From Eubacteriales bacterium (GTDB lineage: Bacteria; Bacillota; Clostridia; Lachnospirales; Lachnospiraceae): 64,000 nt of DNA. Location of the stretch: positions 1 through 64,000 of the forward strand of contig JAUNGM010000019.1 of NCBI GenBank assembly GCA_030524545.1, given 5' to 3'. A program made the translations under genes and the position numbers. Below are positions 42,995 through 64,000 of this stretch, in pieces (the stretch's first letter is position 1; the number at the start of each line of letters is the position of its first letter). The notes under the pieces are model-generated. The model was not told the DNA's origin and did no database searches. It saw only the letters and a list, made by a program, of their open reading frames with translations.

Positions 42995-43057
42995 CCAGTA
43001 CATCACAATAACAAGAGAGAAAAGAACGGACAGGATATTTTAGGAGAGGAGGTTCCT

Positions 43058-44167: not shown

Positions 44168-44185
44168 ATATGGAGGACCGAGGCA

Positions 44186-44425
44186 ATGGAAAATATATCT
44201 TTACAACAATATTACAGACAGCAGATGGAAGAAAAGCAGAGGGAGGACGAATATTCCTGCCTGTTGGAAGATACGGCCAGAAATGTCCGGCAGTTAAAAT
44301 TGCAGGGAAAGAGCAGGCTTGCTTATTTGAAAAGCGTTTACCGGGAGAACAGGCGGAGTATCTGCCGGTATGCAGCGGAGCAGAACTTCCTTTCGGCGGT
44401 CCTCTCGGATGTAAGGAAAAAATGA
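44186..44425 (+). CDS. Small helical protein, 79 aa
   Basis: The frame MENISLQQYYRQQMEEKQREDEY continues as a charged helix with ARNVRQLKLQGKSRLAYLKSVY. GAGG lies 12 bases before the ATG, and the gene ends 4 bases before the next start. A second frame across the same DNA (44170-44433) has a less protein-like composition and I reject it. Function is unknown. Confidence 0.55.
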   Translation: MENISLQQYYRQQMEEKQREDEYSCLLEDTARNVRQLKLQGKSRLAYLKSVYRENRRSICRYAAEQNFLSAVLSDVRKK

Positions 44426-44429
44426 AGGC

Positions 44430-44903
44430 ATGAAAGAAGAGAAAAAAATGACGCAGGCGGGGCTGGAGATCAGGCCGGTCACGCTGCGCCAGGCAAAAGA
44501 GTTTGTAGCACAGAATCACCGCCATCATTTACCGCCACAGGGACATAAATTCTCAATCGGCCTGTATGCAGGGGATCGGATGGTTGGCTGTGCGATATGC
44601 GGCAGGCCGGTAAGCAGATATTTGGACAATAACGAAACCTGCGAGATTACCCGGCTGTGTACAGATGGGACGGAAAATGCCTGTTCCATGCTTTATGGCG
44701 CCTGCTGTCGTATTGCAAGGGAGATGGGATATAAAAAGATGATTACCTATACTCTGGCCAGTGAAAATGGTGCGAGCCTGAGGGCGGGCGGTTTCCAATG
44801 TGAAGGTATTGCCGGCGGGGAAATGTGGACAGGGACCAGGAAAAAGGACAATGGCGTTCCAAAAGAGAAAAAATATCGTTGGTCCCGGATTTTAAGAAAA
44901 TAG
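44430..44903 (+). CDS. XF1762-family acetyltransferase-fold protein
   Basis: A 157-residue protein with the GNAT-like pattern of the XF1762 family: FVAQNHRHHLPPQGHKFSIGLY, VGCAICGRPVSRYLDNNETCEITRLCTDG and NACSMLYGACCRIAREMGYKKMITYT. These proteins are frequent on phages and plasmids. The acceptor substrate is unknown. It starts 4 bases after the preceding gene. Confidence 0.8.
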   Translation: MKEEKKMTQAGLEIRPVTLRQAKEFVAQNHRHHLPPQGHKFSIGLYAGDRMVGCAICGRPVSRYLDNNETCEITRLCTDGTENACSMLYGACCRIAREMGYKKMITYTLASENGASLRAGGFQCEGIAGGEMWTGTRKKDNGVPKEKKYRWSRILRK

Positions 44904-44912
44904 GAGGGGTAT

Positions 44913-45857
44913 ATGGATTTTAACCAGTTTAGAAAAGAGTTGGAAGAAAAAATGATAGAGAAAACAAAAGATATGCCCGGGTCAATACAATTTCAAATGG
45001 TGCAGAAAAATGGCGGGCCAAAGCATGGGATTATATTTACGCCGGAGGGCAGCTCCGTAGGAATGACCATGTATGCAGAAGATGGTTTTAAGCATTATCA
45101 GGAAGGGAATTCCATTGATAAAATTGCAGAAGATATGGCGGCATCTATGGCAGCCCATTCAAATGATTTATCAGAGTGGAGCAATGTAGAGGAATTATTT
45201 GTCCCGGAGAATATTTTCCCGGTATTAGTGCCGGCAAAAGGGAATGAGGGGCTGCTGGAAGAAATCCCGCATATCCCGTTTGAAAACCTGCAGGTCATAT
45301 TTAAGTTTGACCTTCAAAGTTTTGTGGGGGGGGGTACAGCGAATGTAACAAATCATTACATGAAAAAGCAGGGTTGGGATGAGCAGAAATTAATGGAAAT
45401 TGCAATGACTAACCCTATTTATAGGAACCAGATTAAAATTACGCCGATGGAACATCTCTTATTCGGCCCGCCGGATGGGGCAGCTATGGATGACCTGAGC
45501 AATATAAGAGAATATGAGGCCCCGATGGTCATCGTTTCAAATGCTGCCAGGTCTTACGGGGCTTCCGCTATCCTGGACCAGGAGGCCATGGGGAGGATAT
45601 CCGATGCCTTCCAGGAAGATTTCTATATCCTTCCGTCCAGCGTCCATGAATGCATTGCTGTACCAAAGAGCGAGCAGCCTTTGGAGGAATTGCAGGCTAT
45701 GGTACAGGAAGTGAACCGGATGGCAGTAGCGCCGGAAGCTTGGCTGTCTGATGATGTGTACCAGTTTGACAGTTCTGCCAGAAAGATCACAATGGCGGGC
45801 ATAGAACGTGACCGGGATGAAAGGCAGGCACAGAGACAGGATGGGCCTAAACGATAA
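44913..45857 (+). CDS. DUF5688 family protein
   Basis: A 314-residue protein. NSIDKIAEDMAASM near residue 65, then VLVPAKGNEGLLEEIPHIPFENLQVIF, ending with a region of strands (IVSNAARSYGASAIL, FYILPSSVHECIAVP), fit DUF5688, a family common in Clostridia mobile elements with no assigned role. AGGAGGGG precedes the ATG. Codons 138-140 contain a run of nine G (45326-45334). A second DUF5688 gene follows. Confidence 0.82.
   Translation: MDFNQFRKELEEKMIEKTKDMPGSIQFQMVQKNGGPKHGIIFTPEGSSVGMTMYAEDGFKHYQEGNSIDKIAEDMAASMAAHSNDLSEWSNVEELFVPENIFPVLVPAKGNEGLLEEIPHIPFENLQVIFKFDLQSFVGGGTANVTNHYMKKQGWDEQKLMEIAMTNPIYRNQIKITPMEHLLFGPPDGAAMDDLSNIREYEAPMVIVSNAARSYGASAILDQEAMGRISDAFQEDFYILPSSVHECIAVPKSEQPLEELQAMVQEVNRMAVAPEAWLSDDVYQFDSSARKITMAGIERDRDERQAQRQDGPKR
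45326..45334 (+). repeat. G9 homopolymer in a DUF5688 gene
   Basis: Nine consecutive G encode Gly-Gly-Gly within the DUF5688 frame. A tract of this length is prone to slippage, so the gene could switch on and off by length change. As sequenced, the frame is open. Confidence 0.6.
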
Positions 45858-45932
45858 TGGCCCTGCGGCAAAAAAGGATTTCCGGCATCTGTGACATCGT
45901 GCAGCGGTTATGGGAAAGGAGCAGGAAAGAGT

Positions 45933-46910
45933 ATGGAATGGACAGGATGGCTGACAGATTATTACCATAGGCATACAGAAGAATATTTTAGGAACGCCCT
46001 GAAAGAGAATGGACTGCCGGGGGATATGATTACTGAAAAAACAATAATAGGAGAGATGGAATATACCCAGTACCGGTATGTATGTGGAGAAGAAGGGATT
46101 TTGACAGGGGGAATCTGTTTTGAGGACCTGAAGAAACTCTGTGAGTCCACGGAGGAGGATGTGGAGCCGGAAGAACTTGTCAATGTATTATGCGGGGCAT
46201 GGGTGGATGAGTACCATTTTATGGAAGAGAACAGGGAAAGGCTGTTCCAAAAGGATATTGCCAAATACCTGTTTCCTGTACTGATGAACACGAAGCTAAA
46301 TGAAAATCTGCTTCACGAGATGCCGCATGTGAAGAAAGGGGAATATTCAGTAGCGCTTCGTTTAGGGATTCCAGTAGAGGGAGAGAAAGGAATGACCATC
46401 CATGTATCCAATAAAATGCTGGAGTCATGGGGAATCGGGCTGGATGAAGCAATGGAGATGGCGGTCCATAACCAATGGTTTGTGGAACAGTGTACTGTTA
46501 TCAGTGATTCAGAACTGGTCCAGAAGATGAACCAACAGGCGGTAAAGGAGTTTGGTGGGATTTTCCAGTTCGTTGAGCCGGAGGAAGAGACGGGATTTAT
46601 GATTTATGGCAGATATGTTCCCTGTGCTGCCATTTTATTAAATGAAGAATTTGCAGAGGAAATACATAAGAAAATGGGCGGGGATTTTTTAGTGGCTTTT
46701 TTTGGAACGGGAGAAGTACAGATATGCCGGGACGAAGGGAATATTGAAGACCTGCAGATCGACCTTGAGGTAAAGAATGAGCTTTATGGATTTTCATGGA
46801 ATATGGTTTCAGACCAGATATTCCGCTATACAAAAGAGAGAGGGCTTGAGCCGGCCTCTGGCATGGAAAAGGAAAAACAGCGCGTTGGGGAACCAGCACT
46901 TAAAAGGTAA
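45933..46910 (+). CDS. DUF5688 family protein, second copy
   Basis: About 325 residues. I chose the ATG at 45933 after AAAGGAGCAGGAAAGA. LFQKDIAKYLFPVLMNTKLNENLLHEMPHV and VALRLGIPVEGEKGMTIHVSNKMLESWGI parallel the preceding DUF5688 protein. The C-terminal half holds the matching AILLNEEFAEEIHKKMGGDF. The pair presumably arose by duplication. No catalytic motif is known. Confidence 0.82.
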   Translation: MEWTGWLTDYYHRHTEEYFRNALKENGLPGDMITEKTIIGEMEYTQYRYVCGEEGILTGGICFEDLKKLCESTEEDVEPEELVNVLCGAWVDEYHFMEENRERLFQKDIAKYLFPVLMNTKLNENLLHEMPHVKKGEYSVALRLGIPVEGEKGMTIHVSNKMLESWGIGLDEAMEMAVHNQWFVEQCTVISDSELVQKMNQQAVKEFGGIFQFVEPEEETGFMIYGRYVPCAAILLNEEFAEEIHKKMGGDFLVAFFGTGEVQICRDEGNIEDLQIDLEVKNELYGFSWNMVSDQIFRYTKERGLEPASGMEKEKQRVGEPALKR

Positions 46911-47242
46911 AGAGAAGTGCCAAAACCTGTGAAGCCTGCTTTCCGGCGTTGAAACGCCTGGAAAGGCGGATGTGAAACGGTATTGTGGTTTTGCAGGAAA
47001 GGGGGTGGTATATACCAACAGTATTGTAAGAAAAACACAGGTTATATTCATATGTGTACGGGAGGTGGTTTCGATCTTTAAATAATGTGGACTGGCTGAA
47101 AATATTTCATTGTAGCTATGGATTCCGGAAGTTTTTTGCATTGGAAAATAAAAAAATGAAGCGAATCTATAAAAAAGAATAGGAGGAAATTAAGTGAGTA
47201 ATCCTAGGTAAAATGTGTAGCTACACCTCATGAAAATGGGGA
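46911..47242. other. 332-base interval before the methyltransferase
   Basis: It contains GGTATATACC (a 10-bp palindrome near 47006), two GGGAGG-type ribosome sites followed only by short frames, AGGAGG at 47181 followed by a five-codon frame, and a perfect 12-bp palindrome GTGTAGCTACAC at 47215-47226. I see no convincing gene. It probably holds the promoter and control sites of the methyltransferase. Confidence 0.5.
47215..47226. promoter_or_regulatory. 12-bp palindrome upstream of the methyltransferase
   Basis: GTGTAGCTACAC is perfectly symmetric and lies 16 bases before the methyltransferase ATG. It could be an operator for autoregulation. Nothing proves it. Confidence 0.35.
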
Positions 47243-48760
47243 ATGAAATATAGTTTGGTGAATTTTTGTGAATTTGATAAGTATGCAATAAAGAGTTACT
47301 GTGCGATCCATGGCACAGATGAAACGTTGAATCTGGGAGATATTACAAAGGTCGATGAGACCACAATTCCCCCATTTAACATGATCTGCGGCGGTTCGCC
47401 CTGCCAGGATTTTTCTACCGCCGGCGTTCGTAAAGGGGCCGTTTGGACCTGTAAGAAATGTGGGCATCAATACAATCCGCTGCAGGTGCATTACAAAAAG
47501 CGTGACCGGTGTGAAGTATGCGGTTCCGGCGATATTGACAAAACACGTTCTTCCCTGTTGGCAGAGTGGCTGCGGATTATCCGTGGGACAAAACCGACCT
47601 TTGGGATTTATGAAAATGTGAAGAATATCGTGGGAAAACAGTTTAAGGCTACCTTTGACCTGTTTGAAGCAGAGCTTCACGAATATGGATATAATACCTA
47701 CTGGGCTGTGCTGAACGCAAAACGGTATGGTATTCCGCAAAGCCGGGAACGGGTTTATCTTATCCTGATCCGCAAAGAGGCTGACAATGGGAAATTCCGT
47801 TTCCCGGAGCCATTGGACACGTATGTGTGCATGAATGACATCCTGGAAGACGAGGTGGACGAGAAATATTATCTGCGTCAGGAGAAAGTAAAAAAACTGA
47901 TCGAGGATATGGAGGGGCGTAAGGCGCTCCTTTTTGAACCGGATGAAGAAGCTTTGAAAAAATGGAGAGGAAACTGTATCCGGAAAGTGGGACAGTTGAA
48001 TGAACCAGGAGGGTTTGAACAGACCGGGCGTGTTTATTCTACGGAAGGATGCTGCCCTGCGCTGATGGCAAATTCAGGCGGTTCCCATCAGCCGAAGATC
48101 ATTCAGGTTGGAAGAACACACAAAGGGCAATCAGGTGTTGTCTATTCCCCTATGGGAATCTGCGGCACTGAAACAACGGGCAATACAGCCATGATCGTTG
48201 AAAAATCAATGGAAGCCATCCGGGGGAGATACCAGGAGGATGGAACAAAAAAACAGGAAATAAGCAGGGATTTTTTACAGAGCAGCCATACACTTATTTC
48301 TGTTCCAAAGGACAATATTGTTTTAGTACGGCAAAGCTCTAAGAAGGGCTATGAGGAATGTAAACACATGGGACTTGCAAACCTTTCTTATCCCAAAACA
48401 TTGAAATGTGGGCGGGTGATGGAACACGGGGATGTAAGCCCGACAATCACAACGATTTCCGGGGTATGCCGGTTGGAATCATTGATCAGAATCCGGCGTC
48501 TGACACCTTTGGAATCGTTCCGGCTTATGGGGTTTTCTGATGAGGATTTCCGGAGGGCAAAAGAGGCGGGAGTCAGTGAGAGCCAGTTATACAAACAGGC
48601 AGGAAATTCGATTGTCGTGGATGTCCTGTTTTACATTTTTTTAGAATTGTATCAGGCTATGCCCTACCTGTTTGATGACGTAAGACTGTCATCGTTTTTC
48701 AGCGGGATTGGCGCTTTTGAAAAAGCATTGCAGCAGTTGGAAAAATACGTGAATCAATAG
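47243..48760 (+). CDS. Circularly permuted DNA cytosine-5 methyltransferase
   Basis: A 505-residue C5 methyltransferase. It starts with what is normally motif II (NFCEFDKYAIKSY), then catalytic motif IV (GGSPCQDFSTAG, Cys56), a four-cysteine zinc ribbon (CKKCGHQYN and CEVCGSGD) inserted before motif VI (GIYENVKNIV), motif VIII (QSRERVYLIL), a target-recognition region, and motifs IX-X (RLTPLESFRLMGF, QAGNSIVVDVL). SAM-binding motif I, FFSGIGAFEKAL, which should come first, is at the C-terminus instead. No restriction gene is adjacent, so this is an orphan enzyme that probably protects the element. The ATG has only a weak GGGG site, and an in-frame TGA lies 12 bases upstream. Confidence 0.88.
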   Translation: MKYSLVNFCEFDKYAIKSYCAIHGTDETLNLGDITKVDETTIPPFNMICGGSPCQDFSTAGVRKGAVWTCKKCGHQYNPLQVHYKKRDRCEVCGSGDIDKTRSSLLAEWLRIIRGTKPTFGIYENVKNIVGKQFKATFDLFEAELHEYGYNTYWAVLNAKRYGIPQSRERVYLILIRKEADNGKFRFPEPLDTYVCMNDILEDEVDEKYYLRQEKVKKLIEDMEGRKALLFEPDEEALKKWRGNCIRKVGQLNEPGGFEQTGRVYSTEGCCPALMANSGGSHQPKIIQVGRTHKGQSGVVYSPMGICGTETTGNTAMIVEKSMEAIRGRYQEDGTKKQEISRDFLQSSHTLISVPKDNIVLVRQSSKKGYEECKHMGLANLSYPKTLKCGRVMEHGDVSPTITTISGVCRLESLIRIRRLTPLESFRLMGFSDEDFRRAKEAGVSESQLYKQAGNSIVVDVLFYIFLELYQAMPYLFDDVRLSSFFSGIGAFEKALQQLEKYVNQ

Positions 48761-49074
48761 AGAGATGAACCGGAATCTTGAAATGTGATGCAGTCCGGTG
48801 GGATTCACCTTAATACAATCGGTTGGAGAAGAAAAGAGAGAGGGAAGTAGCTGTTTTAGCTGCTTTTTTTATTTGCATAAAGAGAAAAGGCTGGTAACAG
48901 GCACCTCCTGTTATCAGCCAGTTACAGGCAGGACAATTCTTTTTGCGGCATAGGCAAAAAGGGATTGTACAGAAAGGAGGCTTATGATGTGACCGTATAT
49001 GGAATGTTGCCCGTATCAAACTTTAAAAGTATAATGATTCCGTAAAGGGATTTTTAGGAAAGGCGGGATTACCA
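48761..49074. other. 314-base non-coding interval with several hairpins
   Basis: A terminator-like stem, AGTAGCT with AGCTGCT followed by seven T (about 48845-48871), lies after the methyltransferase. A strong stem of GGCTGGTAACAGG with CCTGTTATCAGCC (about 48887-48920) follows. A weaker one brackets TTTTTGC and GCAAAAA near 48940-48963. No gene is visible. Confidence 0.55.
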
Positions 49075-49491
49075 ATGAAAAGCGAGGATTTGCAGAAAAT
49101 GGCATATCTGTATTTGTGCGGCGAAAAGGACAGGGAGCTGCTTTGGGGGAAAAGGGAAATGAAGTATTACGATTTCCGCAGGCTGTTATTTCTGATTAAC
49201 CATATCAAGTTTTGGGATTACGGTGCTTCTTTTTGGAACCGGTTTAGCGGGAAGTTCTTAAAAAACATAAAAGCACTGGAAACGGTCTACGATGAAGAAA
49301 GTGAAAGAGGCGTGTTTTACCAGGATATCGAGTTTAGCCTTTTGGAAGAGGACAACTGGATTGAGGATTTTATCAGGAATGCCCCGGAGGATGTCCAGGA
49401 ATGGCTCAAAGTGTATGTGAGGAATCTGGACCCGGAACGGGAAGAGCTGGTGGATATGCTCAAATGTGGAATGGAATTGGAAAATGCCTGA
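49075..49491 (+). CDS. Unknown 138-aa element protein
   Basis: A helical, soluble protein: it starts MKSEDLQKMAYLYLCGEKDRELLWG and has WLKVYVRNLDPEREELVDMLKCG near the end. GGAAAGGCGGG precedes the ATG. It ends exactly where the repeat-rich oriT region begins. No family is recognised. Its position next to oriT would suit a transfer accessory protein, without further evidence. Confidence 0.6.
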   Translation: MKSEDLQKMAYLYLCGEKDRELLWGKREMKYYDFRRLLFLINHIKFWDYGASFWNRFSGKFLKNIKALETVYDEESERGVFYQDIEFSLLEEDNWIEDFIRNAPEDVQEWLKVYVRNLDPEREELVDMLKCGMELENA

Positions 49492-49729
49492 TAGCAGAAA
49501 TGACCGTTTGGCAGCAAGCATGGAAAAACACAGAAGCAAAGTGATAGCAGGTGTGGAAAACTGATACCAGTTTTTCCATTTCCGGCATGAAAAACTGCTA
49601 TCGGGAGAAAGAAATTGATAGCAGAATTTTATAACCAGCGGCAGGAACAGATAGCAGATGCGTGATTTTGCTATCTGTTTTCTATTTATACTAAGCAGGT
49701 ACTGCTATCATATGTGTGCTACTGCTATC
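49490..49729. repeat. Cluster of GATAGCAG repeats next to oriT
   Basis: Seven exact copies of GATAGCAG lie in 240 bases: direct at 49490, 49543, 49617 and 49650, inverted (CTGCTATC) at 49595, 49702 and 49722. Near-copies occur at 49563 and 49668. The 464-base interval 49492-49954 has no gene. The cluster ends 17 bases before the first oriT hairpin and looks like a multi-site binding region. Confidence 0.75.
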
Positions 49730-49746
49730 AGTAGCCTACAGGGGTT

Positions 49747-49822
49747 TTAGGGGATGCTCCCCTAACAAGATGGATTTTGTACGGCAAAATCCGTATCTTG
49801 CAGAGGACTGGCAAGCCAGTCC
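49747..49822 (+). other. oriT: Candidate origin of transfer (oriT)
   Basis: Three hairpins flank a nic-like site. TTAGGGGA (49747-49754) pairs with TCCCCTAA (49758-49765). GGATTTTG (49772-49779) pairs with CAAAATCC (49785-49792). TATCTTG (49794-49800), which resembles the IncP-type nic consensus TATCCTG cut after the G, follows directly, so the cut would be between 49800 and 49801. GGACTGGC (49805-49812) pairs with GCCAGTCC (49815-49822). The arrangement of an inverted repeat just 5' of nic matches MOBP relaxase substrates, and a MOBP relaxase is encoded at 55671. Confidence 0.7.
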
Positions 49823-50056
49823 GGACAGGATTTTCCGTGTCTGACAGCAGAAAACGGAATCTGCAGGCAGAGTACCAGGAATCCTGCGGCTTATGTTCCG
49901 CGAGCTGTACAGTGAGGACAGAAAGAAATTTAAGGAAGCAAGGAGGGAAAGACGATAGATGCAAATAAAGAGATAACAAACCATTCTGTAAAATCGGCAG
50001 GAACTACACCGATAGCGGCTTTCTACCAGACATGTACCAGTTATCTGGAAAGGAAA

Positions 50057-51052
50057 GTGACCGGCGGATATCGGTTCTGTATTACGCTGACGCATCCCAT
50101 AGAGGGGAAAAAACCGGAAATCCTTACGATAGTGGAGACCGGAGAAAGAAAAATGCTGTATTTCCGTCAGGGCATGGGCACCGTATTTTCCATGGAAACG
50201 GACAGGGAGCAGCTATGCATGGATGTGTTTGTATACCTGCAGAATGGTTTTGAGATCCAGTATATGTCAGAGGAATGCTGCGCCCGTCTGTGGGAGGAGA
50301 TCATGGGAGGATTCACAAAAAAATACCGGGAGCTGCAGGCAGGGGAGCAGTTGTTTTTAACCTATTGTTCAGACTATGGGTATTCCCTGAAATTCCTGCA
50401 GGAAAGTGTAGACGGGCAGGTGCCGGATGCCATGCAGAAATGGGCAGGAAGGCATGAGATAGGGACCAGGCCGGAAAGCACGCCCCAGATACCGGAATGG
50501 ATGGGACTGGGAACAGGCTTTACGGATGGGGTATACCCGGATGACCTGCCGGAAGCAGAAACAAGGCCGGTGGCAAAGTTTATCCGTGAGTGCCATGTAC
50601 AGTTGTATGTAAGACGTTGGGAGGAATTTGAATATATTTTCGTCATGGCAAAGCAGGGGGGAGACGGGAAGGTGGATGTACAGGCGGCCATCAGTGACGG
50701 GGAGGAACTTGCATTTTTTAAAAAAGGAAGGCCGCCAGAAAACATTCCGCAACAAGGCGTGCCGCTCAGCTTCTTTTTCCTGAGATACCTGAAAGCCGGT
50801 TACCATATCGTATATATGTCCGCTGCGGCGCATGGTACGGTATGGAAGGAACTGGCAAAGGGGAGGTCGGAATATCTGCGTCCATACGGGGTACAGATAC
50901 AGGACTATGCAGGATACTGCAGGAAGCATGGGATCACAAAAAACCGCCTTTCAAGGAAACTTGGGAAGGAAGTAACCGATTTTATGGGAATGTACAGTCT
51001 GGAAGGCGGGAAGAATGAAAGAATGACGATTCCTTTACAGCAGCCGTGTTAG
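50057..51052 (+). CDS. Unknown element protein, 331 aa or longer
   Basis: A soluble protein with two similar halves: FCITLTHPIEGKKPEILTIVETGERKMLYFRQ with VFVYLQNGFEIQYMSEEC in the first, and VMAKQGGDGKVDVQAAISDG with LRYLKAGYHIVYMSAAAHG in the second. This suggests an internal duplication. The first ATG/GTG in frame is GTG 50057, but reading-frame similarity seems to continue upstream (AAFYQTCTSYLERK). The only strong ribosome site, AGGAGGG at 49941, is 7 bases before an ATA at 49955 in the same frame. Function is unknown. Confidence 0.65.
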   Translation: MTGGYRFCITLTHPIEGKKPEILTIVETGERKMLYFRQGMGTVFSMETDREQLCMDVFVYLQNGFEIQYMSEECCARLWEEIMGGFTKKYRELQAGEQLFLTYCSDYGYSLKFLQESVDGQVPDAMQKWAGRHEIGTRPESTPQIPEWMGLGTGFTDGVYPDDLPEAETRPVAKFIRECHVQLYVRRWEEFEYIFVMAKQGGDGKVDVQAAISDGEELAFFKKGRPPENIPQQGVPLSFFFLRYLKAGYHIVYMSAAAHGTVWKELAKGRSEYLRPYGVQIQDYAGYCRKHGITKNRLSRKLGKEVTDFMGMYSLEGGKNERMTIPLQQPC

Positions 51053-51062
51053 TTCGGATGGG

Positions 51063-51122
51063 ATGAAAGCAGGCTATTGCCAGGAGCATGGGATAACGTG
51101 TGGTCTGCTGACGGGGAAATGA
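51063..51122 (+). pseudogene. Fragment resembling the end of the preceding gene
   Basis: A 19-codon frame reads KAGYCQEHGITCGLLTGK, which parallels YAGYCRKHGITKNRLSRKLGK from the C-terminus of the 50057-51052 protein. It appears to be a decayed partial duplicate. A 28-codon frame (MSMDDFMDRWPQQIEKKL) follows directly. Confidence 0.35.
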
Positions 51123-51224
51123 GTATGGATGATTTTATGGACAGATGGCCGCAGCAGATAGAAAAAAAGCTGCCGGAGGTATTTGGAAACCCAGGGAGAG
51201 GCTGATAAGGAGATGGAAAATACT

Positions 51225-51794
51225 ATGGTTTATGAGCAGGCAAAGGTAAATGAACTTGCAAAGAAGATCAAAGCATTTATGAGGGAAAACCATATGGTAT
51301 CCGGTTATTTGGAACGTGTCCAGGGTGACCTGGCAGCAGGTATGCCTATCCCGGATATAGAAACAGCGGTAGATAATGGCAGGCTACGGTTCATGTTGGA
51401 TTGTTACCTGTGCCATATGGTTTCTAAAATGCAGGAATCTGAACAGAAAAAGTACGGAAGGAAACTGATAGATGAGCTTGAGAAAATAGAAATTGTCCCA
51501 AAGAAAAAGACAGGAACGGGGATGAAACAGGTCGTTTGGGAGGTTGCAGAGCTGCTAAAAGAACTGGACGGCTTTAAATATGCGGAATATATGGAGGTAG
51601 GGGATATGGAGACGGATACTGTGCGCCGCATTTATACAGATCTGATGGTCCCGGAAAAACGTCTGGCACTGTCCAATTACCTCCAATCCTTTTCCGGTAC
51701 GGTGCAGGGAGAGAGAATCAGTGAGGTGGTGGCTTTTTTGCAGGAAGCAGGAAAAGCACGTGAAGCGGAAAAAAACGTAAGAAAAGGCAGATAA
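51225..51794 (+). CDS. Unknown helical protein, about 189 aa
   Basis: It starts MVYEQAKVNELAKKIKAFMRENHMVSGYLE and is all-helical. Characteristic parts are RLRFMLDCYLCHMVSKMQE and MVPEKRLALSNYLQSFSG. ATGs at 51213 and 51225 are in frame. AAGGAG touches the first, so I took the second, although the spacing of 12 is long. No family is recognised. It lies between the oriT region and Ku. Confidence 0.6.
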   Translation: MVYEQAKVNELAKKIKAFMRENHMVSGYLERVQGDLAAGMPIPDIETAVDNGRLRFMLDCYLCHMVSKMQESEQKKYGRKLIDELEKIEIVPKKKTGTGMKQVVWEVAELLKELDGFKYAEYMEVGDMETDTVRRIYTDLMVPEKRLALSNYLQSFSGTVQGERISEVVAFLQEAGKAREAEKNVRKGR

Positions 51795-51953
51795 TTTCTG
51801 TGGATCATGCAATCGCGGCAGTAAAGGGTCCGGTTTGTGCGGACAGCATGTTAAAAACACAAAAATAAAGATTGCCAGAAACAATTTTACTCCGCAAAAA
51901 GGTGTATTTTTTCACAATCTACAGATACTAACCGAAAAAAAGAGGTGGCAGGA

Positions 51954-52747
51954 ATGGCAGTAGCACACAAAGGCAGTATCTCTATGTCGCTGGTATTGAT
52001 CCCGGTAGGGCTTCATAAGACAACCGTGGATAATGATATCCACTTTAACCAGCTCGACAAGGAAAGCGGTGCGCGGATAAAATACAAAAAATACTGTTCG
52101 CACTGCGGCAGGGAAGTGACCGCCCAGGATATCGTGAAAGGATATGAGTATGAGAAGGGAAAATATGTTACCATGACGGAAGAGGAACTGGACCGGTTGA
52201 AAACAAATAAGGACCGGACAATCCATATCGTACAGTGTTCTAAAATGAGCGAGATCAATATGATCTATTACGAAAAGGATTATTATGCAGTACCGGAAAA
52301 GGGGCAGAAAAAGCGTTTGAGCTGTTGCGCCAGACGCTGCTTTCCATGAAAATGGTCGGGATTGCGAAAACTGTCATCGGGCAGACCGAGAAAACGATTG
52401 TCCTGTACCCTTTGAAAGACGGGCTGATCGCTAAAACCCTGTACTACTATGATGAGATTGCGGAGATTCCCCGGAAGGTCCCCAAAATGCAGCTTGATAA
52501 GAAAGAACTGGATATGGCAAAAATGCTCATACAGACGATGGCAAAACCTTTTGTTGCGGAAGAGTTCCATGATGAGTACCAGGAACGGCTGCGGAACGCG
52601 ATCATGCAGAAGATCAAGGGAAATGATGTCCTTATGGTTGAGCAGGGGGCGGCAAATAACGTGATCGACCTCATGGAAGCGTTAAAAGGAAGCCTTGAGC
52701 TGATGAACCGGGAAGAACCTGTGAAGCGGGAAGGAAAAATATCGTGA
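51954..52747 (+). CDS. ku: Ku protein (NHEJ end-binding), split by a -1 frameshift
   Basis: The two frames together give about 264 residues, the usual length of bacterial Ku. Frame 1 (51954-52349) has MAVAHKGSISMSLVLIPVGL, IHFNQLDKESGARIKYKKYC, a CxxC pair (CSHCGRE) and VKGYEYEKGKYVTMTEEEL, ending AVPEKGQKK. Frame 2, entered by slipping back one base at 52313, continues AFELLRQTLLSMKMVGIAKTVI and runs to 52747. Ku binds double-strand ends and recruits the ligase. The ATG at 51954 follows AGGTGG. The frameshift lies in G AAA AAG (52307-52313). It may be programmed, a mutation, or a sequencing error. The ligase gene overlaps the end by 4 bases. Confidence 0.88.
52299..52338 (+). promoter_or_regulatory. 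Possible -1 frameshift signal in ku
   Basis: The heptamer G AAA AAG (52307-52313) allows two lysine tRNAs to slip back one base. AAGGGG (52299-52304) is Shine-Dalgarno-like but only 2 bases away, closer than is usual for -1 stimulation. AGCGT (52312-52316) could pair with ACGCT (52334-52338). Confidence 0.4.
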
Positions 52748-53679
52748 ACCTGTTTGAAGCAAGGCGTGCGGAGGCGATGCTGATCAAAGAGATGTGTCCT
52801 GCATTTGATTCGCCGGATTGGATTTATGAATTAAAACTGGACGGGTTCCGGTGCCTTGCCTACCTTTGTAAAGGGGAGACTGACCTGCGTAATAAACGCA
52901 ATGTAAGGGTTTTGGGGAAGTTTCCGGAACTCCGTAATATTTGGAACTATGTTTCAGACCGGTGTATCCTGGATGGGGAAGTGGTCGTGATGAAAAATGG
53001 CGTACCGGATTTTTATGAATTACAACGCCGGACGCTCTTGACAGACCCGTTTAAGATCAGGCTTGCATCGGAACGGTTCCCGGCATCCTTTGTGGCTTAT
53101 GACTGCTTATACTGCCGGGAAGAGGAGCTGCTTGATATGCCCCTTATGAAAAGAAAGGAAAAACTGTCTGCTCTATTTTCCAGGGAGACACCCGGTTTTG
53201 CTTTTTCAAGATTTATTGAAGAAAAAGGAAAGTCCCTGTACCGGCTGTGTGAAGAACAGAAACTGGAGGGTGTTGTTGCAAAAAGGAAAAACAGCATTTA
53301 CCGTATGGGTGCGAGGACAAAGGACTGGGTAAAAATAAAACGGATGGCAGATGATGATTTTATCATCGCAGGGTATATCCCCAAAGGGGCAAACCACTTT
53401 AGCCTGATCCTGGCTAAATACAGGATGGAAACTCTGGTATATAAAGGGAGTATAAGCAGCGGTGTAACAAAGGAAACCATCTCCTATCTACTTCCGGCAG
53501 AGAATACCGTGCTTTCACTGGTACCTGCGGCGGAAAACCGGGGAATCATATGGGTAAAGCCGGAAAAGGTGTGCCGGGTGGAATATATGCCAAATACCAA
53601 AAATGCCCTCCGTCAGCCGGTATTCCGTGGGTACAGGGATGATGTGATGCCGTGGGAAGTAAGGGATGTAACTGAATAA
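52744..53679 (+). CDS. ATP-dependent DNA ligase (LigD ligase-domain type)
   Basis: A 311-residue enzyme. Nucleotidyltransferase motif I is ELKLDGFRCLAY, with Lys48 as the adenylated residue. RCILDGEVVVM (motif III), SFVAYDCLYC (motif IIIa), LEGVVAKRKNSIY (motif IV) and KDWVKIKR (motif V) follow, and then an OB fold. It has no polymerase or nuclease domain, so it is a minimal ligase. The GTG start overlaps the ku stop codon, so the two are coupled into a two-gene NHEJ operon. Its natural job would be sealing blunt or incompatible breaks, perhaps of the element during transfer. Confidence 0.92.
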   Translation: MNLFEARRAEAMLIKEMCPAFDSPDWIYELKLDGFRCLAYLCKGETDLRNKRNVRVLGKFPELRNIWNYVSDRCILDGEVVVMKNGVPDFYELQRRTLLTDPFKIRLASERFPASFVAYDCLYCREEELLDMPLMKRKEKLSALFSRETPGFAFSRFIEEKGKSLYRLCEEQKLEGVVAKRKNSIYRMGARTKDWVKIKRMADDDFIIAGYIPKGANHFSLILAKYRMETLVYKGSISSGVTKETISYLLPAENTVLSLVPAAENRGIIWVKPEKVCRVEYMPNTKNALRQPVFRGYRDDVMPWEVRDVTE

Positions 53680-53697
53680 ATCGATAACAACCGAAAG

Positions 53698-54879
53698 GTG
53701 GGAATTTTGCAGAAATGCCGGGTTCCTGCCTTTTCATTTTGGGAGGATGACAGATTGAGATATGAAGAGAAAGATTTTGAACAGTTAAAAAAGAAAACGG
53801 GGGAATTCCTGGAAAATGGGGCGTTGGGAAACATCCGGCCCTATTGGGAGATGCGCTGGCCCTACAGCCAGAAACCGGAAAATTACTTAAATGGGCTTGC
53901 AAAAGCTGATGTAAGGAAAGGATTGATCTCTTTCCTGTATAACATGTCCCATGGGAGAGGGATGGAAAAGACCAGGGCTGCGGAGCAGATCATCGGGGAA
54001 CTGTGGGAATATGGCAGGCCGGATAAAGCGCAGGACCGTGATATGCTGCAATCCTTGGTATGGGACACCTGTATGCTGTTAAAAAACACATGCTATTGGG
54101 ATTGGGAAGAAATGCGGGAGATCGGAGAGTCCGATACGGATATTGTCCGTAAGATGTATGGCAAGCTGCGTACTCTGGAAGGCCGGGAACAGCAGTCGGA
54201 TATCTTTGCCGGATATCTGGAAACATATGATCTTCCTGTAAAAACACAGGCTGAAATGGAACAACTGGAAACCCGGCTGCTGAATTACCCATCCCCGGAC
54301 AGGGAGGAAGACCGGTCCATAAAAAACAGTTATCAGTTACGGGATTGTGTGCAGTGGATTCAGGAATTATCAGCCGCATGGTTTACCCTGCCTTCAAAAG
54401 CATACCGGAACCTTAACCGGACGGGAGTATGGAGGGATTATGTAGTACCCCAAATTCCCAGGTATCAAACGATGTCCTGCTATGAAGTGGTTTCCGATAT
54501 CATAAGCCATGTAAAGGGGCTTGGGGATGTTTATGGGGAACTTATGAAAACCATGGGAAGGGAACATATAGAGCCGCAGGAAATACCCAGCCGGTATGAC
54601 TGGCAGTATTTAAGGGATGCGGAGCCGGCCTGCATAGAAGCGTTGGCAACCCAAAAGGGGCTATATTTTGGGGAAGCCCTTGGCACATTTTATGAGAGCC
54701 GGTTTGCCATGATGCTTGAGCAGGGCAGGGAACGGTATGCTTGGACACGGGCGGAGGCATTTGCGGAATATCTGGAACATTCAGAACCGGAACTGTTTAT
54801 GGAATATGAATGCGGCTGCCAGACAAAAATCCAGAATCTGGGAATAAGAGAAACGGATAACCGCAGAAGTGCGAGGTAG
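53698..54879 (+). CDS. Unknown 393-aa element protein
   Basis: GTG 53698 or TTG 53707 (after AAAGGTGGG) may be the start. The protein is helical and rich in Glu, Trp and Tyr, with DRLRYEEKDFEQLKKKTGEFLENG, AEQIIGELWEYGRPD and GEALGTFYESRFAMMLEQGRERYAW. No motif or membrane segment is visible. It lies between the ligase and the relaxase genes, and I would not assign a job. Confidence 0.65.
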   Translation: MGILQKCRVPAFSFWEDDRLRYEEKDFEQLKKKTGEFLENGALGNIRPYWEMRWPYSQKPENYLNGLAKADVRKGLISFLYNMSHGRGMEKTRAAEQIIGELWEYGRPDKAQDRDMLQSLVWDTCMLLKNTCYWDWEEMREIGESDTDIVRKMYGKLRTLEGREQQSDIFAGYLETYDLPVKTQAEMEQLETRLLNYPSPDREEDRSIKNSYQLRDCVQWIQELSAAWFTLPSKAYRNLNRTGVWRDYVVPQIPRYQTMSCYEVVSDIISHVKGLGDVYGELMKTMGREHIEPQEIPSRYDWQYLRDAEPACIEALATQKGLYFGEALGTFYESRFAMMLEQGRERYAWTRAEAFAEYLEHSEPELFMEYECGCQTKIQNLGIRETDNRRSAR

Positions 54880-54882
54880 GAA

Positions 54883-55323
54883 ATGAAAGAGCGTTTAGAA
54901 AAACCGGAACATTTGACCGCATGGCTTAATGAGGAACGCATCCCTTTCCAGCTTTCATTAAAAGAGGCTGAAATCATCCTTGGATATTTGGAAGGTTCTG
55001 CCTACAGCCTGGAGACAGAGGATGGAATACTCTTTCTTTGTGATGATGTGGAGGAAAACAGGGAAGAAACAGAGATTGACGATGTTGTGCAAAAGGTTTG
55101 CGAAACCAATTATGAGCTGATCGAGGAAACTGCGGCCAAAATAATGGAAGCAGAGATAAGTGCGGACACCAGGCAGGAGGAAGACAGCCTTGCAAGGCTG
55201 ATGGAAGATGAAAAAGCGCTGGCTTTGGTATTTTTGCAGACCAGATTCCAGAAAGGGCTGGAGCAGGCATTACGGCAGGCGGCAGAGAAGAAGAAAACGC
55301 CTGCTGACAGGGCAAGGCGGTAG
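54883..55323 (+). CDS. Unknown 146-aa protein before mobC
   Basis: A soluble acidic protein that starts MKERLEKPEHLTAWLNEERIPFQLSLKEAEIILGYLEGS. Much of the rest is helical and Glu-rich. It begins 4 bases after the previous stop codon and ends about 30 bases before mobC, within the mobilisation operon. The family is not recognised. Confidence 0.65.
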   Translation: MKERLEKPEHLTAWLNEERIPFQLSLKEAEIILGYLEGSAYSLETEDGILFLCDDVEENREETEIDDVVQKVCETNYELIEETAAKIMEAEISADTRQEEDSLARLMEDEKALALVFLQTRFQKGLEQALRQAAEKKKTPADRARR

Positions 55324-55352
55324 GAAGGGGTGGTATTACGAAAAAAGAAACG

Positions 55353-55661
55353 ATGAAATGCAGGAAGGAGATCCGGCTGTCCAGTGAAGAACTGGAAGAA
55401 TTGCAGAAACAGGCTGCAGAAATGGGGGTAACGGATTCCCAGTTCCTGCGGATGCTGATCACAAACCGCCCCAGGGATTACCCGGCAATCCGGCAGGAAT
55501 TGCAGCGGTTAAATAATGAGATCAACCATATAGGGGTAAACATCAACCAGATTACCCATAACAACAACAGCCGGCTGTATTCCGAAACGGATAAGCACCG
55601 GCTGTATGTGCTTATGAAGCGGTTGAAAGACCTGATGCAGCAGGTAATTGAGAGATTGTAA
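55353..55661 (+). CDS. mobC: Mobilisation accessory protein MobC
   Basis: A 102-residue protein with the MobC pattern: RKEIRLSSEELEELQKQAAEMGVTDSQFLRMLI (a ribbon-helix-helix-like start), then LQRLNNEINHIGVNINQITHNNNSRLY and a final helix. It binds oriT with the relaxase and opens the strands. ATG 55353 has no good ribosome site. An in-frame ATT at 55335 lies 5 bases after AGGAAGGGG and may be the true start. The relaxase begins 10 bases later. Confidence 0.88.
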   Translation: MKCRKEIRLSSEELEELQKQAAEMGVTDSQFLRMLITNRPRDYPAIRQELQRLNNEINHIGVNINQITHNNNSRLYSETDKHRLYVLMKRLKDLMQQVIERL

Positions 55662-55670
55662 GGGGAACAT

Positions 55671-57077
55671 ATGGCAATCAGTAAGGTCCTGCACATGAAG
55701 CAGGCAAAATCCGGGTACATGGCGAAACACCTTGCCAACGGCCTCAAATATATCATGGACCCGGATAAAACAGAAGGCGGAAAGTATGTGAGCGGGAATA
55801 ACTGCGTCCCGGAAAATGCACTGGAACAGATGCTGGATACGAAACGCCACTTTGGAAAACTGGATAAAAGGCAGGGGTACCATTTTATCATCTCTTTTGA
55901 GGAGGAAGAGGTAACGGAGGATACCGCTTTTGAGCTTATCGGTAAATTTGTGAAAGAATACCTGGGGCCGGATTTTGAAGCAGTATATGCAATCCATAAT
56001 GATACGGACCACATCCATGGGCACATTATCTTCAATTCCGTGAGGTGTACAAACGGTTACAAATATGATTATCCGAAAGGGGAATGGGAATACCGCATAC
56101 AGCCCCTTGTGAACCGGCTTTGTGAAGAATATGGGCTGTCTACACTGGATATGGAGGAAGTACGGGAGAAAAGAAAACGGAAAGACATACCAAAAGGGCA
56201 GGAAGCGGAAAAAAGGGTTTCCATGAGGAACCAGCGGATAAAGAAGGATGTAGACCGGGCAGTGGAGGATGCGGATACCTATGAAGAATTTCTGGAACTT
56301 CTAAAATGCATGGGATATGAATTATCAGGGAAGAAGCACCTGGCAGTCCGGGAGAACGGGGCGGTAAGAAGCAGACGTTTGGATTTACTGGGAGAAGAGT
56401 ATATGGAAGAAATGCTCCGGTGCAGGATTGAAAAGCCGCCCATACCGGCACAGCAGGAAGACCCCAGGGAAACCGGGCTTATTTATATTTTTATCCCTTA
56501 CAGGAACCGCCATCTGACGCGGCACCAAAAGGAGTGCTTCATACGGAAGTACCGCGCGGGGAAAATCCATACGGACCAGAAACCATGGGAATACCGGAGC
56601 AGCCTTCAGACCCTGCGCCGGCTGCAGGAAGAATATATTTTTTGGGAAAAACATGGCATCCGTTCAAAGGCGGACCTTTACACAGCGGAAGATAAAGCGG
56701 CAGGACAGATCAAAGCTGTCCGGGAAAAGAAGAAAGAGCTGGAAGAAAAAAAGAAATCCTATGATGCAGTATTACACCTTCTGGAAGAACTGGAGCCTTT
56801 GGAAATCGAGGCAGACCTTTATAAAGAGGGGTATCCGGAATTTCTGGAAGAGTACCAGAAGTATGAGGCTGTCTGCAAAAAACTGGAGAAACTGGGGTAT
56901 TCTCTGGCAGACGCAAGAAAGGCAGAAGCGTATTTCAGGGAAGGGTTCCGGGAATTGAAGGAGCAGAGGGGGCAGGCAATGCGGGAAAAACGGATTGCGG
57001 GCCGTCTGCTTTCTAAAGTCTATCAGAAGGAAAGAGGGAAGGAGGCGAGGGATGAAATGCAGGAAAGAGGCTTATAA
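55671..57077 (+). CDS. MOBP-type relaxase (VirD2/MobA nuclease family)
   Basis: A 468-residue protein. The relaxase domain is in the first 170 residues: SGYMAKHLANGLKYIMDPDKT with a candidate catalytic Tyr, HFIISFEEEEVTE, and the HUH-type motif HNDTDHIHGHIIFNSV. The C-terminal half is a long coiled-coil region rich in Lys/Glu, with RNRHLTRHQKECFIRKYRAGKIH. It nicks one oriT strand and pilots it to the recipient through VirD4. It is not a fragment. Confidence 0.9.
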   Translation: MAISKVLHMKQAKSGYMAKHLANGLKYIMDPDKTEGGKYVSGNNCVPENALEQMLDTKRHFGKLDKRQGYHFIISFEEEEVTEDTAFELIGKFVKEYLGPDFEAVYAIHNDTDHIHGHIIFNSVRCTNGYKYDYPKGEWEYRIQPLVNRLCEEYGLSTLDMEEVREKRKRKDIPKGQEAEKRVSMRNQRIKKDVDRAVEDADTYEEFLELLKCMGYELSGKKHLAVRENGAVRSRRLDLLGEEYMEEMLRCRIEKPPIPAQQEDPRETGLIYIFIPYRNRHLTRHQKECFIRKYRAGKIHTDQKPWEYRSSLQTLRRLQEEYIFWEKHGIRSKADLYTAEDKAAGQIKAVREKKKELEEKKKSYDAVLHLLEELEPLEIEADLYKEGYPEFLEEYQKYEAVCKKLEKLGYSLADARKAEAYFREGFRELKEQRGQAMREKRIAGRLLSKVYQKERGKEARDEMQERGL

Positions 57078-57164
57078 ACAGTCAGCGTGCAGGCTGCCAA
57101 AAACGGGCAGCGTTTCAAAATTGAATGGCCGCTGGACTGAAAAAGTCCAGGGAAAGGAGACAGA

Positions 57165-58166
57165 ATGACCATTGAAGAACAGCGGTATTTGGATGAATGT
57201 AAGAAGGTGCTGAACAGGGAGCAGTTGGATGCGGTTACCATGGCAATGGATTACGGGCTGCAGATACAGGAGATCCGGAAGGTAGTACAGAGTAACCAAA
57301 GCGCGCCATGTATGCATGAGATCGTTTTAGGGATGATGGAGGGAATCAAGACCGATGTGTTGGATTTCCTGTGTGAGAACGATTTTAACCAGTACCAGAT
57401 AAAAGAAATCCGTGAGGGGATCGCGGGAGGGCTGACCTTTGAGCAGGTAAAATCCTATGCTACAAAGGAAATGTCCGCAAACCGTATGAAAAAAATGCGC
57501 CAGCAGTTGGAAAATACCATGCAGGAAAAGAATGGACAGTCAGATGACAGTGTAAGGGAGTACATGAAAGGGCTTATGGAGATCATGGAAACCTCGATAC
57601 AGCAGTTTAGGGAAAGCAACGAGAGGTTTGATGCGCTGTCCTCTCTTGTAAAGGAGCATGTAGTAGATGAAAAGAACCGTGAAATCCAGGAGCTATATGA
57701 GAACCTGAAATATAAGGATAAGAGCATCCAGGAACTGCAGCGAAAACTGGCGGACCGTGATAAGACCATTGCGGATTTAAAATCAGCGATAGCAGAGGGC
57801 AGGCGGGAAACAGAACCGCAGAAGGTAACGGAGGAAAGGATACCGGAAAAAGTGCCGACAGTTCCTGACGGGGAAACAAAAAGAGGGGAACTGCTGTTTG
57901 AACCTGTTATGAAAGAACCGCAGGCAGAAAAGAAGAGGATGCTTGGATGGTTCCTGCGTGATAAAAAGGTTCCCCAGGATGTTTTTGGGAAGATCATGGA
58001 GGCAGACCTGTCTACGGAACAATTAGAGGAAGTGCGCCAGTGCATAGAGTGCGGGCTGACAGACAGGGAGATCGCGAGGGTAATAGAGAATACGCCTGCT
58101 CCGGAGCGTATGAGGAAAATGCGTGAAATACTGATGCTTATGAAGAAGAGAAAGGGAGGTGCCTGA
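57165..58166 (+). CDS. Helical-repeat and coiled-coil protein, 333 aa
   Basis: The N-terminal ~115 residues contain repeats of about 45 residues with the shape LDAVTMAMDYGLQIQEIRKVV and QIKEIREGIAGGLTFEQVKSYA. A coiled coil (about 120-215) and a Pro/Glu linker follow. The C-terminal repeat is EQLEEVRQCIECGLTDREIARVI. The same unit ends VirD4. GGAAAGGAGACAG precedes the ATG. It overlaps the next gene by 8 bases. It could be an adaptor for the coupling protein or relaxosome, but no family is known to me. Confidence 0.7.
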   Translation: MTIEEQRYLDECKKVLNREQLDAVTMAMDYGLQIQEIRKVVQSNQSAPCMHEIVLGMMEGIKTDVLDFLCENDFNQYQIKEIREGIAGGLTFEQVKSYATKEMSANRMKKMRQQLENTMQEKNGQSDDSVREYMKGLMEIMETSIQQFRESNERFDALSSLVKEHVVDEKNREIQELYENLKYKDKSIQELQRKLADRDKTIADLKSAIAEGRRETEPQKVTEERIPEKVPTVPDGETKRGELLFEPVMKEPQAEKKRMLGWFLRDKKVPQDVFGKIMEADLSTEQLEEVRQCIECGLTDREIARVIENTPAPERMRKMREILMLMKKRKGGA

Positions 58167-58605
58167 TATGTTTTCGATTGAACATGTTGTCCGGATTTTC
58201 CCTTTATTGGAGGAAGCAGAGAAAGAACGCCCCCTCTTCACGCAGGCAGAAAAGCAGATGCTTTACAGGATTGCATTCCATAAAGAATCCTTTGATGAAG
58301 TACAGAGGCTCATGGTGCAGGCATCGGCCCCGCAATTAAAAGCGGAAGAGAGGAAACAGTTACTGGAATATCATGTTGGTAAGCTGCCAGAGCCGCCAAA
58401 CAGCGCCGCAGCCCAGATTGAAAACTATATTTTCCATACACAGCTTATGATTTATGAAAAAGAAAAGGCCAACCGTATACTGGAGGATATCTTAAAGAGG
58501 AGCGGTTTAAATAAAGAGCTGGATGCCATGATCGCAGAGGCAAGGAATAGGCCCTTTAAGCCCCCAAAAGAAAAACCGGCGGTACAGAATGGGAAGGCCA
58601 TATAA
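58159..58605 (+). CDS. Unknown 148-aa transfer-operon protein
   Basis: A soluble, helical protein: MFSIEHVVRIFPLLEEAEKERPLFTQAEKQMLYR with QTIENYIFHTQLMIYEKE-like helices later on. GGAGGTG precedes the ATG within the end of the upstream gene. It lies in the transfer operon, between the repeat protein and the PcfB-like gene. No recognised family. Confidence 0.65.
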   Translation: MPDMFSIEHVVRIFPLLEEAEKERPLFTQAEKQMLYRIAFHKESFDEVQRLMVQASAPQLKAEERKQLLEYHVGKLPEPPNSAAAQIENYIFHTQLMIYEKEKANRILEDILKRSGLNKELDAMIAEARNRPFKPPKEKPAVQNGKAI

Positions 58606-58620
58606 GGAAGGGGGGATTGC

Positions 58621-59799
58621 ATGAGTGAGATTCAGGATGCGGCACAGATTATCCGTGTTTCTTTTGAAGGCGCTGAGATTATTATGAAACTGGGAAAGGC
58701 AAATCTGGATTTTTTGAAGGGCGTCTGTGCCGTATTCAAGAATTTGCTGGACCAGGAGAAGCTTTCGGGAAAAACGTCTGTCAAGCAGCTCTTGAAATCC
58801 GGCGGAGACCTGCAGGTGTTCAAATTCCGGACAGAGGATATGGCTACAGTCAAAAAAATGGCGGACAAATACGGGATTCTGTATTCTATCTTACCGGACC
58901 TTAATAAATCGGACGGGATGAGTGAGATTCTGTTCCATAGCCAGGCAGCGCCCCGTATTCAGGCCATCATGGAGCAGATACAAAACTCCAAAATAGAGTC
59001 CATGGATGATTATTTTGCAAATGCGGAGCCGGAAGAACTGGAGAAGGCGGTCCAGGAAGCGGAAAAAAAGCCCGTAATGCCAAAGGAAAATGAATACCGG
59101 GTGGCGGCGGAGGAGTTTATAAAAAATCCGGGCGCAAAAGTGAGTGATGTCCGGTCACGGTTAAACATGACTTGGCTGGAAATATGGCCCATTGTAAAAC
59201 ATATGGAAAGCAATAATCTGGCCGAGCTTGGCAAAGACGGGACACTTACCATGAAGATGGATCCTGCCCAGTTCCGGGAATTGATCAATTCCGAACAATG
59301 GAAGTCGTGGTTCGGGAAGGAAGAGGCGGACAGCAGGAGGGGAGCCGGCAGGAGCCCTTCGGATGATAAGATGGAAGAACTCAAGAGGATTCAGAAGATG
59401 TCCCGGGAGAACCCAAAAGTAAACGGGATCACGATTGACAGAAAAATGGTAACAGAAGAAACGGAGAAAAACATCAAGACCAGGATTCCTTATAAACGGG
59501 ATGAATACATCTGGCTGAGAAAATCAGAGATTTCCTGGATTAATGGGAATAAGACGATCTATGCCAGCCTTGAAAAAGAGAAAAATTATATGGTACTGGA
59601 CAGGGAAAACAAGCCTGTCCGGACGGTATCCGGGCAGACATTGTATGAACAGAGCTATGACCCGGTAAACAGGGAACATATAAGGCGGCAGCAGGAACAG
59701 AAGCAGAGAAGGCAGCAGCAGAAGCAGCGGGAATACAAACGCACACAGAAAGCGTTGGAGGATACGAGAAAAGCACTGAGCGGAAGGAAGGGGCGGTAA
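58621..59799 (+). CDS. PcfB-like (DUF3801) protein
   Basis: A 392-residue protein. About residues 10-115 are the DUF3801/PcfB domain (ETIMKLGKANLDFLKGVCAVFKNL-like helix, then LQVFKFRTEDMATVKKMADKYGILYSIL). A long linker and a basic coiled tail (RRQQEQKQRRQQQKQRE) follow. In Enterococcus pCF10, PcfB is a substrate adaptor that works with the VirD4-like PcfC, and here the VirD4 gene follows directly. This is longer than PcfB itself. Confidence 0.8.
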   Translation: MSEIQDAAQIIRVSFEGAEIIMKLGKANLDFLKGVCAVFKNLLDQEKLSGKTSVKQLLKSGGDLQVFKFRTEDMATVKKMADKYGILYSILPDLNKSDGMSEILFHSQAAPRIQAIMEQIQNSKIESMDDYFANAEPEELEKAVQEAEKKPVMPKENEYRVAAEEFIKNPGAKVSDVRSRLNMTWLEIWPIVKHMESNNLAELGKDGTLTMKMDPAQFRELINSEQWKSWFGKEEADSRRGAGRSPSDDKMEELKRIQKMSRENPKVNGITIDRKMVTEETEKNIKTRIPYKRDEYIWLRKSEISWINGNKTIYASLEKEKNYMVLDRENKPVRTVSGQTLYEQSYDPVNREHIRRQQEQKQRRQQQKQREYKRTQKALEDTRKALSGRKGR

Positions 59800-59837
59800 C
59801 CACAATCCAGAACAATAAAAAGAAGACACCATTATGG

Positions 59838-61943: not shown

Positions 61944-61947
61944 AAGA

Positions 61948-62017
61948 AGGCAGATTTATGAAAACCCATAGTTTTTGCATGGCGCAGGGTGGGTTTTCAT
62001 AAGCCTGCCTTTTTGCG
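61948..62017 (+). terminator. Long stem-loop between virD4 and the pilin-like gene
   Basis: An AGGCAG/CTGCCT base and an inner TATGAAAACCC/GGGTTTTCATA stem form a long hairpin, followed by TTTTT. Only about 30 bases separate it from the next ATG, so it may adjust the level of the downstream genes and not end the operon. Confidence 0.65.
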
Positions 62018-62046
62018 TATGCACCAGAATGAGATAGAAAAGGAGA

Positions 62047-62385: not shown

Positions 62386-62478
62386 TCCAGTTTATGTACA
62401 GTCACTAAGAAACAAAAAACAGGGCCGGGAAACAGCGTTTTCCTGGCCTGTTGCCTGGAAGAAAAGAGGTGAAGAGGA

Positions 62479-63315: not shown

Positions 63316-63336
63316 GATGGAAAGGAAGGATGCCGG

Positions 63337-63969: not shown

Positions 63970-64000
63970 AAGAAAGGGAGAAGGGTATCCAACTTACGCT
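63960..64000 (+). CDS. Start of the next transfer gene, cut by the window end
   Basis: The ATG at 63960 overlaps the end of the previous gene, after GGGAGGAAAAGG, and reads MQVKEREKGIQLTL to the end of the window. Thirteen to fourteen residues are too few to name it. In related elements a PrgI-type or VirB4 gene follows in this region. Confidence 0.5.
   Translation, partial: MQVKEREKGIQLT

Follow-up and report, generated by a model that had tools for sequence, protein, structure and literature searches.

End-joining systems in which Ku is paired with a LIG domain and the complete three-domain LigD is lacking have been termed nonconventional NHEJ, a class that is over-represented in Firmicutes (PMC7719229). 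In the same survey, LigC, which has the LIG domain only, is said to be able to carry out repair, ligase-only repair is mentioned alongside LigD without Ku in 619 genomes, and plasmid-borne NHEJ is recorded for 60 genomes from the alpha- and beta-proteobacteria and the Streptomycetales; gains of NHEJ by transfer were inferred there, and no chromosomal NHEJ was reported from compositionally foreign regions (PMC7719229). Mycobacteriophage Corndog appears to recircularise its DNA by end joining, in which a phage-encoded Ku is likely to assist (PMC4351075). NHEJ with a ligase only, and NHEJ on plasmids, have already been published; a search of titles and abstracts for Ku plus ligase in ICEs or conjugative elements of Clostridia returned no published report, within a coverage that left out most subscription journals. 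Phage-encoded Ku was reportedly described by Pitcher in 2006, and phage Ku probably acts together with the LigD of the host.

The locus described here lies in a stretch of 64,000 nucleotides (the window), which is part of contig C10 (ending at 89442) of a 76-contig, 4.34 Mb draft genome from a member of the Lachnospiraceae. As in nonconventional NHEJ (PMC7719229), Ku adjoins a ligase-domain-only protein, but the pair is carried by a conjugative element and Ku is frameshifted. It shares with plasmid-borne NHEJ the presence of NHEJ genes on a mobile replicon, and likewise with plasmid CP141730.1 (Oscillospiraceae bacterium), on which an intact pair was located ~5 kb from a T4CP gene and ~10 kb from a MobP3 relaxase gene; CP141730.1 is, however, not the element of the window, and its ligase was 42% identical. 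With phage Ku of the Corndog kind (PMC4351075), the locus has in common that Ku is supplied by a mobile element, whereas identities among the phage matches listed were 28-34%. We consider it likely that the pair represents ligase-only, NHEJ-type accessory cargo of a MOBP element, with a broken Ku frame and a function that is probably impaired.

The Ku and ligase genes

An initial annotation of this DNA had named a Ku protein and a minimal LigD-type ATP ligase, and both families were matched by profile (Table 1). The ligase was whole and in one frame, scoring above the cut-off with PF01068 and PF04679, and below it with TIGR02779 (210.4 bits; cut-off, 227.75). It proved to have a LigD-type ligase domain with catalytic motifs, aligning over these with M. 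tuberculosis LigD (1vs0; E 4e-23). The annotation had both claimed the motifs and allowed that they might turn out inactive once aligned, and on the 1vs0 alignment they do not look inactive. Its statement that the ligase has no further domains also agreed with the data: profile search found no polymerase (POL) or nuclease (PE) domain in the ligase protein and PF21686 (LigD_Prim-Pol) was not found in the genome, on which basis three-domain LigD is absent. Searches of the 76-contig genome found no other PF01068 ligase and no second Ku.

Table 1. Coordinates of the pair, the element that carries it and the loci used for comparison (window positions, except in the last line)
Feature	Coordinates	Strand	Evidence
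Ku N-terminal half	51954..52349	+	PF02735 103 bits, profile 2-114; TIGR02772 143.6 bits
Ku frame-change site	~52297..52304	+	reads A AAG GGG in upstream frame
Ku C-terminal half, other frame	52301..52747	+	PF02735 to profile end; TIGR02772 125-259
Minimal DNA ligase of the LigD ligase-domain type (ATP-dependent; 311 aa)	52744..53679	+	PF01068 106.8 bits; PF04679 41 bits
Conjugative element	28049..64000, continuing past window	+	left end inside comM; homology to sibling element starts at 28049
Candidate oriT, conserved stretch	49721..49864	.	DNA similarity to related elements; function inferred
MobC/NikA-like relaxosome protein	55353..55661	+	PF21983, PF05713
MOBP-type relaxase	55671..57077	+	PF03432 122 bits
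Type IV coupling protein	59838..61943	+	PF02534 202 bits
Recombinase-ligase stretches	L161 8604-10936; L162 2451-5022; L093 8605-10957		

The Ku gene was not one open frame at 51954-52747, its N and C halves being located in different frames. Translation from ATG 51954 ends at 52349 and yields 131 amino acids, of which ~115-119 are Ku-like, the rest, up to the stop, being out of the Ku frame; the frame of the C half, the product of which was 84-85% identical to L062 and L063, has no stop before 52747. The family match to PF02735 was split into two pieces (positions 2-114 and 113-190), the TIGR02772 scores of the two halves (143.6 and 101.8 bits) were each below the cut-off of 150, and the full-length, single-frame bacterial Ku of nonconventional NHEJ was not found here. 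Because of this frame change, which had been missed, one should not presume that the locus encodes an active system of two proteins. The 4-base overlap that was said to couple the two genes is real (TGA 52745-52747 over the ligase GTG 52744-52746), but it belongs to the frame of the Ku C half while the Ku start is in the other frame, so that it is unreachable from the Ku start without slippage.

Both Ku halves were present at 118 of the 133 relatives' loci compared (108 once repeated contigs were discounted). In 116 of these 118 the gene stayed in a single frame across the corresponding site, showing that intact copies of Ku exist. The exceptions were L073, in which the frame changes ~13 codons further on, and L090, in which it changes before the site. 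Relative to L062, dN was 0.015 for the Ku N half, 0.10 for the Ku C half and 0.19 for the ligase (dS > 2), Ku being more conserved than the ligase in this comparison. These low values point to selection on Ku and ligase until recently: both genes would have been under selection over most of their history since diverging from L062, and the break in Ku would then be recent, an assembly error, or bypassed.

According to the explanation that we favour, a type of pair that occurs in many Clostridia would have been captured in a variable stretch between oriT and mobC. Judging from their families, the ligase would join double-strand ends to which an intact Ku had bound, with neither a polymerase nor a nuclease taking part. 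In the window the Ku frame was most likely broken through a one-base change, probably a recent one, by which end joining by the pair has probably been lost or much reduced, the ligase being still encoded. The window copy is probably decaying cargo and is not to be cited as an active system. An unlikely alternative, if one worth keeping in mind, is that the organism itself has an unbroken Ku and the frame change arose in sequencing or assembly; the change is of one base in an A/G run of a 76-contig draft, and the gene shows a selection-like pattern otherwise, but the run is short and 13 other genes of the window matched L253 as single uninterrupted stretches, most of them near full length.

The conjugative element and the place of the pair in it

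The relaxase, MobC, T4CP and T4SS ATPase by which a MOBP conjugative element is recognised were all present, the last as a VirB4-like ATPase in the mobilisation block, together with synteny with related elements. On gene content we take the element to be of the kind of the Tn1549-like MOBP conjugative elements of Clostridia, with which it shares MobC, a MOBP relaxase, a VirD4-type T4CP and a VirB4-like ATPase, and from which it differs in its Ku-ligase cargo and in that an integrase was not found in the sequence examined (genome searches with PF00589 and PF07508 gave no match on contig C10, up to 89442). At the left end, the match to comM stops at 28050 and picks up again on contig C20, at base 51. 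Relatives of the relaxase were not found in viral contigs, and among the relaxase matches in plasmids 3 of 804 records covered at least 80% of the query.

The pair had been described as lying between oriT and the relaxase, and this arrangement was confirmed, with a candidate oriT upstream and MobC and the MOBP relaxase downstream. The candidate oriT was 83% identical to L253 over 149 bp and 90% identical to L254 over 95 bp. Matches to it were present in 12 of the 24 related elements, spanning 95-149 bp in six of them and 34-79 bp in the other six. It sits between genes of the + strand, with inverted repeats nearby, and is overlapped by a mechanically called minus-strand ORF (49736-50095).

Related elements were sought by relaxase searches in 397 genomes of the family, 64 of the genus and 392 of the order, and 24 stretches of 10-20 kb around the relaxase, from 22 genomes, were picked by relaxase score. 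Neither Ku nor the ligase was found in these 24 stretches, a span over which a pair located elsewhere in the same elements could be missed, and two further stretches beside L253 gave no DNA match to the pair. In L253, the closest related element (relaxase 67%), ~75 bp separated the aligned portions of g51.2 and g53.7, the genes on either side of the pair in the window; in L324-L326 MobC followed within ~130 bp of the candidate oriT; from these layouts the oriT-mobC interval looks like variable cargo space. DNA similarity of the window to L062 and L063 spanned 51942-53660, that is, only the two genes. Judged by the stretches compared, the pair is not a conserved part of the transfer machinery of the element. 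That a conjugative element carries it illustrates one route by which NHEJ genes, sporadic as they are, can move between Clostridia.

Several other features of the element were noted. For the element and its closest sibling (L253/L276), the insertion point lies in each case at a GxxGxG-like ATP-binding loop coded by the flanking gene: comM for the element (window 28049) and, at ~14825 of L276, another gene that is ATPase-like as judged by eye. This possibly reflects a target preference. At 31976-38272 the window encodes a protein of 2098 aa whose segments are repeated and whose end is LPXTG-like; by eye it resembles an adhesin, and SpaA-type genes also lie close to the pairs of L062 and L063, the nearest relatives of the window pair. 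Near the candidate oriT, a C5 cytosine methyltransferase gene (47243-48760) is kept in L253 and L324-L327. To the right of the window, near the end of contig C10 (83924-85738), an ORF resembled a group II intron reverse transcriptase by eye.

Occurrence of the pair in other genomes

Ku was present in 30 of 397 genomes of the same family, including the source genome; 25 of the other 29 had a ligase match near Ku, 19 of these being of the minimal type and 6 being part of a long LigD-like frame. A pattern scan of 84,980 species genomes produced 492 ligase relatives, and the best 80 of the 492 were taken on. Among these, the closest ligases were those of L062 and L063 (73-74% identical), which formed a fully supported clade with that of the window. 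Ten repeats of the same contigs were removed before the pair, tree and intact/broken counts, after which the same gene order was found in 90 Ku-ligase pairs from other genomes, the examined flanks of which contained neither the MobC nor the relaxase of the element by tblastn.

The initial annotation had treated the pair as belonging to the element, and had itself stated that the same gene order without the element would speak against this. Such pairs are what the 90 loci provide, and together with the absence of the pair near the relaxase in the 24 related elements they led us to reject a pair specific to the element. What survives of the proposal is that a conjugative element carries a ligase-only NHEJ-type pair between its likely oriT and its relaxase; that absence and the wide occurrence of the pair weaken the idea of a repair system owned by the element.

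A conjugation-gene match was present in the examined flank of 11 of the 90 pairs, and of 7 among the 54 for which each flank spanned 5 kb or more; these are raw counts, taken without a random-locus baseline and including several pairs from one family, and they represent lower bounds because many contigs were short and the profiles were home-made (the relaxase profile misses some types, for example MobP3 in L222). At L111, one of these 11, a fragment of a PF03432 relaxase was located ~1.2 kb from the pair. The phage and plasmid collections contained many remoter relatives of Ku or the ligase, none of them at or above 60% identity.

Broken Ku genes, solitary ligases and other mobile homes

Both genes were intact at 79 of the 95 deduplicated genome loci with ligase. 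A broken Ku next to an intact ligase was found at six (L070, L073, L075, L076, L077 and L090), probably reflecting four events, while an intact Ku with a broken ligase was found at none of the 95. The ligase of L037 was cut by the contig end and the other nine loci were cut or had no Ku N half; L110, flagged as broken at residue 2, was left out of the six as an alignment-start artefact. From viral contigs or plasmids, 24 loci were obtained, of which 13 had both genes intact. At seven viral-contig loci (L148, L151, L152, L154 and L160-L162), each with more than 2 kb of upstream sequence, the ligase was intact and its strand contained no Ku N half within 3 kb; L155 and L156 were cut too near the ligase for the absence of Ku to be judged. 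A tyrosine or serine recombinase gene was seen just upstream, on the same strand, of the ligase lacking a Ku N half in L161, L162 and L093 (Table 1).

These loci raise the alternative that some mobile elements retain the ligase for its own sake rather than the pair, the ligase sealing nicks or ends without Ku. The one-sided loss of Ku at genome loci, the Ku-less viral ligases, the recombinases next to such ligases and the LigD genes in Ku-less genomes noted in PMC7719229 all hint that the ligase can be useful alone. The numbers are small, however, the 79 loci that keep both genes speak against it, as does the stronger conservation of Ku than of the ligase, and we regard this alternative as rather unlikely.

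Seven loci (L064, L067-L071 and L081; family A) were assigned to conjugative elements of another family. In L069, L071 and L081, the pair was located between a TrbL-like gene and the coupling protein gene, with DUF6100 following in L064, L069 and L081. Partial views were obtained of the TrbL-like side in L068 and L070 and of the coupling-protein side in L064, and L067 contained a Ku fragment, the ligase, a coupling protein and a serine recombinase. A VirB4-like gene was present further out, beyond L070 and L071 (stretches L316 and L319), and L316 also contained a SpaA/thioester adhesin; two of five stretches taken, L315 and L318, derived from contigs chosen in error and were left out. The placement of the pair between conjugation genes in family A hints at more than passive cargo, and there is some support for conjugative elements more generally carrying such a pair. 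This recurrent position, in at least three genomes (L069, L071 and L081), is a lead worth following.

A second group (L074-L077; family B), from Blautia species and Candidatus Limivivens, was 99.3-99.98% identical in blocks of 4-7 kb and had a ParM-like neighbour gene and an intact ligase. Ku stops at residue 32 in L075-L077, while the Ku start of L074 is off the contig. Family B is represented by three MAGs and one isolate, and its near-identity may reflect either recent spread or shared binning of the MAGs.

If the pair of family A does aid establishment in recipients, end joining would constitute a new class of transfer-associated function. A broader version, in which conjugative elements of gut Clostridia repeatedly recruit a two-gene end-joining kit beside their transfer genes to rejoin element DNA that recipient defences cut upon entry, and keep the ligase after Ku loss for Ku-independent sealing, seems quite doubtful to us.

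It is decidedly unlikely that the window pair is a working repair system that serves its element, recircularising or repairing it during transfer or excision. The location between candidate oriT and relaxase and the ligase motifs would suit such a role, as would the pairs between TrbL-like and coupling protein genes in L069, L071 and L081, the nearby relaxase fragment in L111 and the end-joining recircularisation of Corndog, which appears to occur with phage Ku likely helping (PMC4351075). Against it, Ku is frameshifted here, the 24 related-element stretches contain no pair, and 79 of the 90 pairs had no conjugation-gene match in the examined flank, many of these flanks being short.

Very unlikely, finally, is a programmed -1 shift of the ribosome at A AAG GGG as the means by which Ku is made, which would leave the system intact. 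In its favour, the two frames join at a heptamer that has the form X XXY YYZ, both Ku halves are low in nonsynonymous change, and the fold of the 81 bases 3' of the site was slightly better than expected from shuffling (z -1.8; equalled by 11 of 200 shuffles). The 131-base fold around the site was unremarkable (z -0.75; 52 of 200 as good), making the RNA-fold support weak and mixed, and we rejected this reading as the two-frame arrangement, which would be expected of a programmed-frameshift gene, is not kept in relatives, 116 of 118 being in one frame at the site. With the pair regarded as cargo with a broken Ku, the slippery-looking A AAG GGG makes it possible that some full-length Ku is produced by slippage.
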